64,000 bases of DNA. Origin: Bacillota bacterium (lineage in GTDB: Bacteria; Bacillota; Clostridia; Clostridiales; Clostridiaceae). The stretch is taken from assembly GCA_021781655.1 (NCBI GenBank), contig JAJXWJ010000002.1:1-64000 (forward strand), given 5' to 3'. Numbering within the stretch: the stretch's first letter is position 1; every line of letters starts with the position of its first letter. Below are positions 21,753 to 26,417 of this stretch, in pieces. A program made the position numbers and the translations under genes. The notes under the pieces are model-generated. The model was not told where the DNA came from. It saw only the letters and a program-made list of their open reading frames with translations, and ran no database searches.

Positions 21753-21843
21753 ATATAGAAATATAAAATTACTCAGGTTGAATTTTTATTTGATCTGAGT
21801 ATAATATTTTGTAATAGTAGCTTTAGTGTTTAGGGGTGTAATT

Positions 21844-24249
21844 GTGATTAAATCAAATTTAAAAAAAGAAGATGTAATTACATATAAAATAATGATTCAA
21901 CAAATTGAAGAATTGCATTTTCACCAGGATGTTGAACTTATATATGTACTTGAAGGTAATATGGAACTCACAGTTGAAAAGGATACCTTTTATCTTGAGA
22001 AAGATGATTTAGTAGTAGTAAATGCTAATAGGAGACATAGCTATAAATGCTCAGAGAATATATTGATGGCAAGTTTTTATATTTCATTTAAGATATTAAG
22101 TGATTATCTTGATAGTAATTTAATATTGTTTTGGTGTAATTCTACAATTGATAAAGATGATTCTTATGAAGAAATGAGAAAAATAATAAAGTTGATTTTT
22201 AATCACTATTTAAATAGACTTGGTAAAAATGATTTTTATGAGTATAGTTTATTTTATAGACTATTAAATATATTGACAAGTAGTTTTTTAATAAGTAGCA
22301 AAGATAAACGTTTACAAACTATAGATAGTAGAATCGACAGAAGAATAGATGAAATTGTGAATTTTATTCATGTAAATTATACAAGGCAAATAAGTTTAAA
22401 TGATCTTGCTAGTAAATTTCATTTATCCAATTCCTATTTATCAAGATATTTAAAAAAAGAACTAGGAATGAACTTTGTAGATTACTTAAATAATATAAGA
22501 CTGAATAAAGCATTGGAAGATTTATTGTATACGGATATAACAATCACAAGAGCAGCATTAGACAATGGATTTGCAAATACAGCTCTCTTCAATAAATTAT
22601 TTAAAGCAAACTATAAAGTAACACCTTCTGAATATTTAAAAAAGATGAGACTTCATGAAGAAAGAAATTTTTGCAATGAAGATGATGAAAAAAACGTATT
22701 TTCTAGACTTGATGCCCATTTTGAAGAAAATAAATTAGATTCAAATTTTGACATGGTAAAGGACAATAAATTTATAATTGTTGATGCAAATATGAAAAAA
22801 GCATTTAATAAAAATTGGAATAAGGTCATTAATATTGGTTCGGCATTAGATTTGCTACAGTCAGAAATGCAAGAGCATGTTCTTTTATTGAAAAATGAAC
22901 TTAAATTTGAATATGTAAGATTTTGGAGTATCTTTGGTAAAGAAATGTATGTTAGTTTATCAAACAAAGACGGAAAATTTAATTTTGATAAGATTGATAG
23001 AGTTTTAGATTTTTTAGTAAACAACAAAATTAAGCCGTTTATAGAATTTGGTCAAAAACCTAAAAGAATAAACAGAACAGTTAGTGATTTGTTTATAGTT
23101 GAAGAAGACCAAACTATTTTTAAAGATTCTAGATTGTGGGAAAAAGTTATAAAAGCTTTTGCAGCTCATATAGTTATGAGATACGGTATTGAAGAAACTC
23201 AAAATTGGTGTTTTGAAGTATGGAGCCCAGAAGATTTGAGTATAAGTATTGATTATATAGAAATTTTTAATCTAACTTATACTGAATTAAAGAAATACAT
23301 GAATAATTGCAAAGTCGGTGGAGCAGGATTTAGAGGTGATTATGGATTAAAGACATTGATGAAGAATATTTTAATGTGGAAAGAACAGTCTATTCAGCCG
23401 GATTTCATATCTTTATATGTTTTTCCATATATTTTTATGGAGGATAAGGATGAAAAGTATTCCAAAACGTCAACTGATAAAAATTTTCTTAGCAATCAGA
23501 TAAAGCAGTTGAAAGAACTTTTAAAGGAAATTAAATGGGATGTTAAAGAAATTTATGTTACAGAATGGAACAATACAATATCTAATAGAAATTACATGAA
23601 TGATAGCTCATATAAAGGCGCTTACATAATGAAAAATATTATAGATAATATAGATAATGTAGACATACTATCATATTGGATTGGATCGGATTTATTTTCA
23701 GAATTTTATGATTCAAATGTAATTTTAAATGGAGGGGCTGGACTTATATCAAAGAAGGGAATAAAAAAACCAGCTTTTTATGCATTTGAGTTTTTGAATA
23801 GAATGGGAAACAGTATTATTGATAAAGGAGAAAATTATATTATTACTTCAAATAATCATAATGGATATTATATTGCTTGTCATAATTATAAACATTTCAA
23901 TTATTATTACTATCTGAAAAAAGAAGATGAAATTGAACCAAAAGATCAGAATAAAATATTTATTGATTATGAAAATCTTAGGCTAAATTTTCAGCTTAAA
24001 AATTTATGCAATGGGGAATATAATGTCAAAACGTATTCAATAAGTAGAGGAAATGGAAGTATATTAGATGAATGGATGAAGATGGAGACTACTAGCGATT
24101 TGGGAAAGGATGAGGAAGATTATTTAAAGAGAATATCTACTGCAAGATTGTCTATTAAAAAATGTGTTGTAGTCGAAGAACTTTTAAATTTAGAGATTAT
24201 TTTAGCGCCAAATGAAATCAATATTGTACATATATCATATTGTGATTAG
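21844..24249 (+). CDS. AraC-type regulator fused to a GH39-like domain (copy 1)
   Basis: About 801 residues. N-terminal cupin sensing domain (about 20-90), AraC double helix-turn-helix (about 178-275, SLNDLASKFHLSNSYLSRYL and ITRAALDNGFANTALFNKLF), then a GH39 beta-xylosidase-like barrel (about 330-720). In active GH39 enzymes the acid/base lies in WNEP; here the segment is WCFEVWSPEDLS near 455, so that Glu is displaced, while the nucleophile-strand motif TEWN near 572 remains. This points to a sugar-binding sensor rather than a working glycosidase (inference). GTG 21844 is preferred because AGGGGTG lies just before it. A Crp/Fnr gene follows after 35 bases. Confidence 0.85.
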   Translation: MIKSNLKKEDVITYKIMIQQIEELHFHQDVELIYVLEGNMELTVEKDTFYLEKDDLVVVNANRRHSYKCSENILMASFYISFKILSDYLDSNLILFWCNSTIDKDDSYEEMRKIIKLIFNHYLNRLGKNDFYEYSLFYRLLNILTSSFLISSKDKRLQTIDSRIDRRIDEIVNFIHVNYTRQISLNDLASKFHLSNSYLSRYLKKELGMNFVDYLNNIRLNKALEDLLYTDITITRAALDNGFANTALFNKLFKANYKVTPSEYLKKMRLHEERNFCNEDDEKNVFSRLDAHFEENKLDSNFDMVKDNKFIIVDANMKKAFNKNWNKVINIGSALDLLQSEMQEHVLLLKNELKFEYVRFWSIFGKEMYVSLSNKDGKFNFDKIDRVLDFLVNNKIKPFIEFGQKPKRINRTVSDLFIVEEDQTIFKDSRLWEKVIKAFAAHIVMRYGIEETQNWCFEVWSPEDLSISIDYIEIFNLTYTELKKYMNNCKVGGAGFRGDYGLKTLMKNILMWKEQSIQPDFISLYVFPYIFMEDKDEKYSKTSTDKNFLSNQIKQLKELLKEIKWDVKEIYVTEWNNTISNRNYMNDSSYKGAYIMKNIIDNIDNVDILSYWIGSDLFSEFYDSNVILNGGAGLISKKGIKKPAFYAFEFLNRMGNSIIDKGENYIITSNNHNGYYIACHNYKHFNYYYYLKKEDEIEPKDQNKIFIDYENLRLNFQLKNLCNGEYNVKTYSISRGNGSILDEWMKMETTSDLGKDEEDYLKRISTARLSIKKCVVVEELLNLEIILAPNEINIVHISYCD

Positions 24250-24284: not shown

Positions 24285-24959
24285 ATGTTAAAAATTAATG
24301 ACTCTAGATTATTAGAAGAACATTGTAAAAAATATAATATTTCTAACTATTTTTCAGATTGGACAAGAGTAGAGAAAAGTTTAGTAATGTATGAAAAAGG
24401 AGAGTTAATTTGCTCACCAGGTATTGAACTAAAAAATCTTATTTTTTTGGTAAAAGGGAAAATGAAAATTTACTATCTTGGAGAAAGTGGAGAAGAATTT
24501 TTCTTATCATTTATTACAGACTTTGTTTTTTTAGGTGATGTAGAATATGTTTTGAAAACTTCAACAGAATCACTAGCTGAAGCAGTTACAGATGTTGAAT
24601 GTATTTTGATACCATTAAATAAAAATCTCTCTGTTTTAGATCAGGATATAAAATTTCAAAAGTTTATAAATAAATCTTTAGCAGATAAGTTTATTCAATT
24701 TAGTTTTGGAACTTTTAATAAAGAACTTTATTCATTAGAAATTAGATTGGCATCTTATATTTTATTTAAATTGGTAAATCATGATGAGCTTAAGAATATT
24801 AATATTATTAGTAAACAATTACGCTGTAGTTATCGTCAGTTATTAAGGGTAATTGCAAGGTTTTGCGAAATTGGCTGCTTACAAAAAGGATTAAAAAAAG
24901 GTATGTATATAATTACTAATAGAGAGCTTTTAAAAGAAATTGCTGAAAAAATAAATTAA
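24285..24959 (+). CDS. Crp/Fnr family transcriptional regulator
   Basis: 224 residues: cyclic-nucleotide-binding-type beta barrel (about 35-125, KGELICSPGIELKNLIFLVKG) and a C-terminal winged helix (about 150-215, ISKQLRCSYRQLLRVIARF). No Fnr cysteine cluster at the N-terminus. ATG 24285 follows TGAGGTGAG; the GTG at 24276 overlaps that site. Likely co-transcribed with the AraC-GH39 gene; the stop codon touches the attenuator-like repeat that precedes the MATE gene, so it may regulate or be coupled to that gene (inference). Confidence 0.85.
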   Translation: MLKINDSRLLEEHCKKYNISNYFSDWTRVEKSLVMYEKGELICSPGIELKNLIFLVKGKMKIYYLGESGEEFFLSFITDFVFLGDVEYVLKTSTESLAEAVTDVECILIPLNKNLSVLDQDIKFQKFINKSLADKFIQFSFGTFNKELYSLEIRLASYILFKLVNHDELKNINIISKQLRCSYRQLLRVIARFCEIGCLQKGLKKGMYIITNRELLKEIAEKIN

Positions 24960-25031
24960 TCCCTTCATTTTAAGTATATGACATTGTCACATACTTAAAA
25001 TGAATTTTTTGTTATACTTAAAATGAAGGGA
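24960..25031 (+). promoter_or_regulatory. mutually exclusive hairpins: terminator versus ribosome-site sequestration
   Basis: One 18-base arm (24960-24977, TCCCTTCATTTTAAGTAT) can pair with 24991-25004 (ATACTTAAAATGAA), making a terminator with an inner TGACA/TGTCA stem and TTTTTT at 25005-25010. It can also pair perfectly over all 18 bases with 25014-25031, which includes GGGA of the MATE ribosome site. The first arm begins at the base following the Crp/Fnr stop codon. The layout is what an attenuator or translation-coupled switch would look like. Confidence 0.6.
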
Positions 25032-25040
25032 GAGATTAAT

Positions 25041-26417
25041 GTGAGTAAAGAGGTTTTAATGAATGAAGATATATTTGAAAAGTTACCTATAGGAAAAGCA
25101 ATTGCAAAATTGGCCATACCAACAATGATGGGGCAATTGTCCACTGTAGTTTATAATATGGTAGATACTTTCTTTGTAGCTAAGACAAATAGCCCAAATC
25201 AAATTGCAGCTGTTACGTTATCCATGCCTATAGTACTTATTTTAGCTAGTATTGGTGCATTATTTGGAATGGGTGGAGGAAGCTATGTTTCTAGACTACT
25301 TGGCCTAAAGGAAGGTAATAAGATAAAAAACACATCCTCATTTTGCTTTTGGGTGTCTGTATTTATAAGTATACCTATACTTATAATTGGACTTTTATCA
25401 TTGAACTCAATTACAAAAATAACTGGAGCAAATCTATATGATTTTAATTATACTAAAGAGTATTTAATGGTTATTTTTATTGGTGCACCTTGGATTATTT
25501 TAAGCAATATGTTGATTCAAATAATCAGAAGTGAAGGAAATGCAAAAGATGCTTCATTAGGACTTATCATAGGAATGGTAATAAATTGTATTTTGAATCC
25601 AGCTCTAATTTTAGGGATGGGTTGGGGTGTCATAGGATCGGCAATAGCTACTATAACAGGTAATGTAATAAATGTGTTATATTACTTTGTGTTTTTCATT
25701 AAAGGAAGAACAATTTTATCAATTTCAGCAATTCATCTAAAGAAGGATTTGGAAGTTGCTAAAAATGTTATTATCATGGGTATTCCTGCTGCTTTAGTTC
25801 CAACTTTAATAAGTGTTTCAAATATTTTTTTAAACAACCTTGCAGGACAATATGGTAGCAATCCAGTGGCAGCTATTGGGATTGTATCTAAAGTAACATC
25901 TATTTCTATTATGCTCGTAGTTGGATTATGTCAAGGTGTTCAGCCTTTAATAGGATATAATTATTCATCTGGAAATATTAAAAGAATGAAAAATACAGTT
26001 AATTTGACAGTATTAATTTCTTTTATTTTAGGAATTGTTTGTTTGGCACTATTTGCAATAGTTAAAGTTCAAATAATAAATATATTTATCAAAGACAGTA
26101 ATATAATTTCTCTTGGAAGTGGCTTCCTTTTATTCATGTCTATATCACTTCCTATACTTGGAATTAGCAATATTGGAATGGTGTTTTTTCAGGCAATTGG
26201 AAAGCCGATACAAGCAATGTTTTTAACTGTGGCAAGGCAAGGGGTTATTTATATACCTTTATTATTTGTTTTGAAAAATAGTATGCAACTTAATGGAATT
26301 GTATTAGCACAACCAATATCTGATTTTATTACTATGATAATTACAATTATTTTGTATATGAGTTTTATTATGAAAAAGAAAAAAGAAAAAGAAAATGTTG
26401 TTGAAGCTGTTAGCTAA
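25041..26417 (+). CDS. MATE family efflux transporter
   Basis: About 458-residue membrane protein with 12 predicted helices in two MatE repeats: IPTMMGQLSTVVYNMVDTFF in the first, GIPAALVPTLISVSN in the second, and GVQPLIGYNYSSGN. Exports cationic drugs or metabolites with Na+ or H+ exchange. GTG 25041 is chosen 7 bases after GGGAGA; the ATG at 25023 lies in front of this site. The ribosome site is part of an 18-base repeat that can be masked (see 24960). Possibly exports toxic aglycones or other products of the nearby sugar clusters (speculative). Confidence 0.88.
   Translation: MSKEVLMNEDIFEKLPIGKAIAKLAIPTMMGQLSTVVYNMVDTFFVAKTNSPNQIAAVTLSMPIVLILASIGALFGMGGGSYVSRLLGLKEGNKIKNTSSFCFWVSVFISIPILIIGLLSLNSITKITGANLYDFNYTKEYLMVIFIGAPWIILSNMLIQIIRSEGNAKDASLGLIIGMVINCILNPALILGMGWGVIGSAIATITGNVINVLYYFVFFIKGRTILSISAIHLKKDLEVAKNVIIMGIPAALVPTLISVSNIFLNNLAGQYGSNPVAAIGIVSKVTSISIMLVVGLCQGVQPLIGYNYSSGNIKRMKNTVNLTVLISFILGIVCLALFAIVKVQIINIFIKDSNIISLGSGFLLFMSISLPILGISNIGMVFFQAIGKPIQAMFLTVARQGVIYIPLLFVLKNSMQLNGIVLAQPISDFITMIITIILYMSFIMKKKKEKENVVEAVS

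Follow-up and report, generated by a model that had tools for sequence, protein, structure and literature searches.

A palindromic hairpin between a YeiL-like Crp/Fnr gene and a MATE transporter gene as a probable operator, promoter region and terminator

Class II activation by Crp/Fnr proteins is typified by E. coli CRP or FNR, which act from sites at -41.5, and by PrfA with its box, TTAACANNTGTTAA. A different kind of arrangement is found at T4 gene e and at I-TevI, where long transcripts hide a ribosome site and RNAs begun at an internal promoter are missing the left arm of the structure and are well translated (PMC3014915, PMC2988022). For the YeiL-like branch of the Crp/Fnr family, little was found on any described function, and the open-access titles and abstracts retrieved had nothing on the operator described here or on YeiL in clostridia. 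The junction described here lies between a YeiL-like Crp/Fnr gene (crp) and a gene for a MATE family transporter, and would be a compact element acting mainly as DNA. The explanation favored, with fair but incomplete confidence, is that it combines an operator, a class II-like MATE promoter and a crp terminator, with, as its weakest part, a possible insulation of MATE against read-through.

The window (the whole stretch of DNA analyzed, 64,000 nucleotides) reads TAA-T-CCCTTCATTTTAAGTATATGACATTGTCACATACTTAAAATGAATTTTTTGTTATACTTAAAATGAAGGGAGAGATTAAT-GTG at 24957-25043. The features needed to follow the argument are these:

24285-24959, forward strand: Crp/Fnr regulator, YeiL-like, from ATG 24285 (GTG 24276 also possible); Pfam cNMP_binding, 7e-11
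24957-24959: crp stop codon, TAA
24960-24977, forward strand: arm A, TCCCTTCATTTTAAGTAT, beginning at the first base past the crp stop codon
24964-25004, no strand: palindrome of 41 bp centered on 24984, containing A and A'; stem of the probable crp terminator
24977-24991, no strand: probable operator TATGACA-T-TGTCACA, centered on 24984, with a 1-bp spacer and the half-sites of loci L040 and L041
25005-25010, forward strand: run of six T (T6) directly 3' of the hairpin
25010-25018, forward strand: extended -10 TGtTATACT of the predicted MATE promoter, conserved as TGATAAATT in relatives
25014-25031, forward strand: arm A'', overlapping the -10 and the GGGA of the first MATE ribosome site
25026-25034, forward strand: Shine-Dalgarno-like AAGGGAGAG for GTG 25041
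25041-26417, forward strand: MATE family efflux transporter; Pfam MatE, 9e-45; TIGR00797, 188.6 bits, above the cut-off
25047-25061, forward strand: alternative ribosome site AAAGAGG (25047-25053) with ATG 25059

The best NCBIfam match of the Crp/Fnr protein is YeiL (NF007707; 104 bits, 6.5e-30), under the 180-bit cut-off of that family. The crp ATG follows 35 nt after a gene (21826-24249) for a protein of 807 residues, in which an AraC-type regulator with cupin and HTH parts is combined with a domain of glycoside hydrolase family 39.

Three related repeats make up the junction. Arm A pairs with A'' without a mismatch (18 of 18 positions), and its part at 24964-24977 does the same with A', at 24991-25004 (14 of 14); A'' is a copy of A' plus GGGA. 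The 41-bp palindrome has 20-nt arms that are 95% complementary, with one mismatched pair and 1 nt between them, and TGACA-T-TGTCA (24979-24989) forms the tip of the hairpin. A sequence-only reading of this DNA had described an 18-base arm after the Crp/Fnr stop codon with a perfect match to 25014-25031, a 14-base pairing with 24991-25004 followed by six T, and an A'' that covers the GGGA of the MATE ribosome site. All three descriptions hold, the GGGA being at 25028-25031, inside the Shine-Dalgarno-like sequence of GTG 25041. That the junction might be a mobile or repeated element was considered and set aside: the full sequence is single-copy in the genome, the remaining matches are short and weak, and there is no plasmid match. 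An Rfam search gave no family above its gathering score, only chance-level hairpin matches of 20-25 bits against cut-offs of at least 100.

Family-wide searches in Clostridiaceae returned crp relatives at about 30-43% identity. In the nearest of these, from genomes G089 and G094 (43% identity for crp, 36% for MATE), crp and MATE are divergent and the operator is present, as TATGACACATGTCACA next to the crp start; two further Clostridium contigs, found by contig scan, have the same crp type and operator. More usually the product of the gene divergent from crp is a YdcZ exporter (PF04657); at some loci it is a purine nucleoside phosphorylase (PF01048). In 23 relatives a single TGACA-NN-TGTCA precedes the crp start, at a distance of 16-116 nt, and most of those that do not have it show a similar sequence such as TAGGACATATGTCATA, whose spacer is likewise 2 bp. 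(L025 and L027 have weak operator candidates only, and the most distant members have none.) Among 30 TATGACANNTGTCAYA loci retrieved from 206 family genomes, 21 adjoin a YeiL-like gene, mostly with YdcZ opposite. Since the motif is kept beside YeiL-like genes, TATGACATATGTCATA is taken to be the putative operator of the YeiL-like Crp/Fnr group. When the transporter-facing sides of the relatives are aligned on the operator center, TTTCAA stands at offsets 13-18, and TATGATAAATT has its TG at offset 27 and its hexamer at 30. Two genome-contig scans and a class-wide search gave no relative with the same tandem order and repeats.

At L045, L046, L049 and L126, the gene that follows the YeiL-type operator encodes a purine nucleoside phosphorylase in place of YdcZ; at L126 there is no nearby crp gene. 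These phosphorylase-linked operators hint at a nucleoside-related signal.

The half-sites in the window are identical to those of the TATGACACATGTCACA operator at L040 and L041 and close to the family consensus, TATGACA / TGTCA(T/C)A being matched exactly at 24977-24991. A matrix built from 20 relatives, with spacers of 1-3 bp allowed, ranks this palindrome as the top site of the 64 kb, and no other operator-like site lies before the window crp gene. The earlier suggestion that TGACA-T-TGTCA is a DNA site for the regulator gains good support as a prediction, given the same half-sites beside YeiL-like genes, including the nearest crp-MATE pairs. On the other hand, the spacer is 1 bp in the window and 2 bp in the relatives, which counts against the operator reading. 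The 1-bp form is not enriched in the 206 genomes (6 forward matches, compared with 15 for a reversed control); it is present in seven of them, and only the window copy adjoins a YeiL-like regulator. The short spacer could mean a genuine variant, a site of reduced strength, or a mistake of the assembly at the hairpin tip.

A wider regulon in the same genome was looked for and rejected: TGACAN0-4TGTCA has 8 occurrences there, and its reversed control has more. One of the 8, on contig C133 (L071:1500-1551), has two good 2-bp-spacer sites before a DUF134 gene, the palindromes TATGACATATGTCATT and TAAGACATATGTCAAT, which lie about 32 bp apart in the gap between the DUF134 gene and a short-chain dehydrogenase gene. 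They may mark a further target of the YeiL-like regulator, or be a DUF134 operator. Also in this genome, TTTTAATTGACAATTGTCAATTAAAA-type AT-rich palindromes lie between convergent genes (L072:1422, L073:1407 and L074:1340) and are probably two-way terminators. Palindromes of the TATGACATTTGTCA type are found beside an ABC transporter ATP-binding gene at L075 (contig C118 of this genome) and at L108, L111 and L112, where a response-regulator gene flanks them opposite the ABC gene; they would belong to a different class of regulator whose half-sites are almost identical. Because TGACA..TGTCA palindromes in the window's own genome also occur at terminator-like stretches (L072-L074) and beside the ABC transporter gene (L075), the core alone is not diagnostic. 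In relatives, too, such palindromes adjoin response-regulator and ABC genes. At L081, TGTGACACATTGTCATT, with a 3-bp spacer, lies downstream of a -10-like TATACT and just before the start of another MATE gene; it was set aside, this MATE gene following a TetR-like gene.

On the MATE side of the window palindrome, the TG (25010) and TATACT (25013-25018) lie 26 and 29 nt from the center base 24984, and the extended -10 precedes a transporter gene as in the relatives. The TG-to-center distance is about 27-27.5 nt there, and the -10 in the window is closer by 1-1.5 nt. With this one-base shift, the MATE-facing -10 block scores 6.9 against a 99th percentile of 6.2 for the window, which places it in the top 1%; the crp-facing side scores -1.3. 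The TTTCAA element of the relatives is missing from the window, and there is no consensus -35 in it. The distance from operator to extended -10 is about that of class II Crp-type activator sites. MATE transcription is predicted to start near 25025, which puts the operator center near -41. A YeiL-like regulator bound to the palindrome core at 24977-24991 would then be placed much as a class II activator is, some 41 bp ahead of the start, and activate MATE from the -10 at 25010-25018.

Why would an operator be drawn out into so long a palindrome? Outside the operator core, the window is symmetrical at 13 of 13 positions, compared with a mean of 4.7 of 13 in the relatives (one of which reaches 10). 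The hairpin begins 4 nt past the crp stop codon and ends in T6. Its folding energy is -17.8 kcal/mol (z -7.4) and that of the whole segment is -26.0 kcal/mol (z -5.1), in each case with 0 of 200 shuffles equally stable. The hairpin is absent from the list produced by a terminator pattern scan and its stem is A-T rich; it does have the stable stem and immediate T run of an intrinsic terminator. Such a terminator would agree with the extra symmetry, with T6 and with a location just past the stop codon, and the outer arms with T6 probably terminate the crp transcript. An intrinsic terminator could be used in the tandem order and would not be in the divergent one.

Could the hairpin be a terminator and nothing else? 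An AT-rich palindromic crp terminator, whose TGACA/TGTCA core resembles an operator by chance, would account for the -17.8 kcal/mol stem, its T6 and its place 4 nt past the stop codon; elsewhere in this genome, palindromes with TTGACAATTGTCAA do occur where two genes converge, and the spacer is 1 bp off the family operator. However, the flanks are operator-like, TATGACA/TGTCACA rather than TTGACA/TGTCAA, the relatives' matrix finds its best site in 64 kb here, beside the cognate gene, and the MATE side has a -10 at about the right distance. Such a coincidence is considered improbable. Less credence still is given to the possibility that the regulator binds the same site as a repressor, blocking polymerase at the MATE promoter and perhaps also polymerase coming from crp. 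Crp/Fnr proteins do act as repressors at some promoters, and the site overlaps the position of a -35 element, but the window has no consensus -35, and the relatives keep the fixed distance from operator to extended -10 that class II activators use. Most likely, the hairpin DNA contains the regulator's own binding site and the pump promoter, and doubles as the end signal of crp.

The remaining alternative places control in the RNA. According to the sequence-only reading, a ribosome terminating on crp would cover arm A in a joint crp-MATE transcript and so choose between the terminator and a closed or open MATE site. Arm A does follow directly on the stop codon, and the two folds are, as that reading had proposed, mutually exclusive: over the same 108 nt, forced A:A'' pairing gives -26.0 kcal/mol and forced A:A' pairing -21.7 kcal/mol. 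From these energies the folds, which are physically sound, exclude each other and A:A'' is favored at equilibrium, although A:A' could form before it. Since A'' is A' plus GGGA, read-through RNA would prefer A:A'', hiding the first ribosome site; the computed unpaired fraction of 25026-25032 is 0.14 in read-through RNA and 0.80 in RNA starting at 25025. Suitable energies and a closed site are thus in place for such a switch. Against it, a family-type promoter lies downstream of arm A, and in relatives the palindrome core is kept in the gap between divergent genes, an arrangement in which a switch of this kind is impossible. The terminating ribosome departs fast, and when it is gone both folds would lower MATE expression; in addition, the second start, ATG 25059, is mostly open. 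The sequence-only reading would itself have given way to a MATE transcript starting downstream of 24977, and the start predicted in silico, near 25025, does lie there. A ribosome-controlled switch is therefore probably not at work here, and it is given only a slight chance.

With the DNA-centered explanation, the same repeats could have a more modest role. With its predicted start near 25025, within A'', the mRNA made from the MATE promoter would not include arm A and would keep its ribosome site open, while in read-through RNA A:A'' would cover the first of the two MATE ribosome sites. The fold lends weak support to an insulation of the T4 gene e type, which would block one site in read-through RNA only; this is the weakest step of the proposed mechanism. 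A site hidden only in the long RNA fits GTG 25041, not ATG 25059, which lies outside the A:A'' hairpin in the computed fold. Insulation would matter only according to the start codon used, because ATG 25059 with its AAAGAGG would escape. The two starts are about equally plausible, and the N-termini of homologues do not favor either: the MATE proteins of L040 and L041 align from the Met at 25059, and other homologues have varied starts.

In the boldest form of the scheme, a single palindromic junction of about 70 bp would serve as operator, terminator and translational insulator, with an unusual 1-bp-spacer site at the terminator tip and the promoter in the third repeat, and the pump would be made only from regulator-activated starts and not from read-through. 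This form is rather doubtful. The chief gain is a proposed operator, with its promoter layout, for a Crp/Fnr group of which little has been described. Dozens of Clostridiaceae share the conserved TATGACATATGTCATA and a constant promoter arrangement, which makes the target genes directly testable, the candidates being YdcZ exporters, MATE pumps and a purine nucleoside phosphorylase. The window, for its part, suggests a way for operator and terminator to become one where a regulator gene and its target are in tandem.

How does the junction compare with the known systems? As in T4 gene e and I-TevI, the long RNA would hide the ribosome site and the predicted own transcript would do without the left arm. 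Unlike in those cases, one arm can instead pair with a third repeat to give a terminator hairpin, and a second start codon may escape. The YeiL-like Crp/Fnr (NF007707)-YdcZ (PF04657) loci are divergent and have a 2-bp spacer, whereas in the window crp and MATE are in tandem, the operator has a 1-bp spacer and is drawn out into a probable terminator, and the protein scores 104 bits against the cut-off of 180; what the window shares with them is the regulator group, the half-sites and the distance from operator to -10. The site itself, TATGACA..TGTCA(T/C)A, differs from those of E. coli CRP/FNR and PrfA, and the class II likeness is one of geometry only. In that geometry the window agrees with class II Crp/Fnr promoters: its palindrome lies some 41 bp ahead of where transcription is predicted to begin, and there is a -10 but no good -35.
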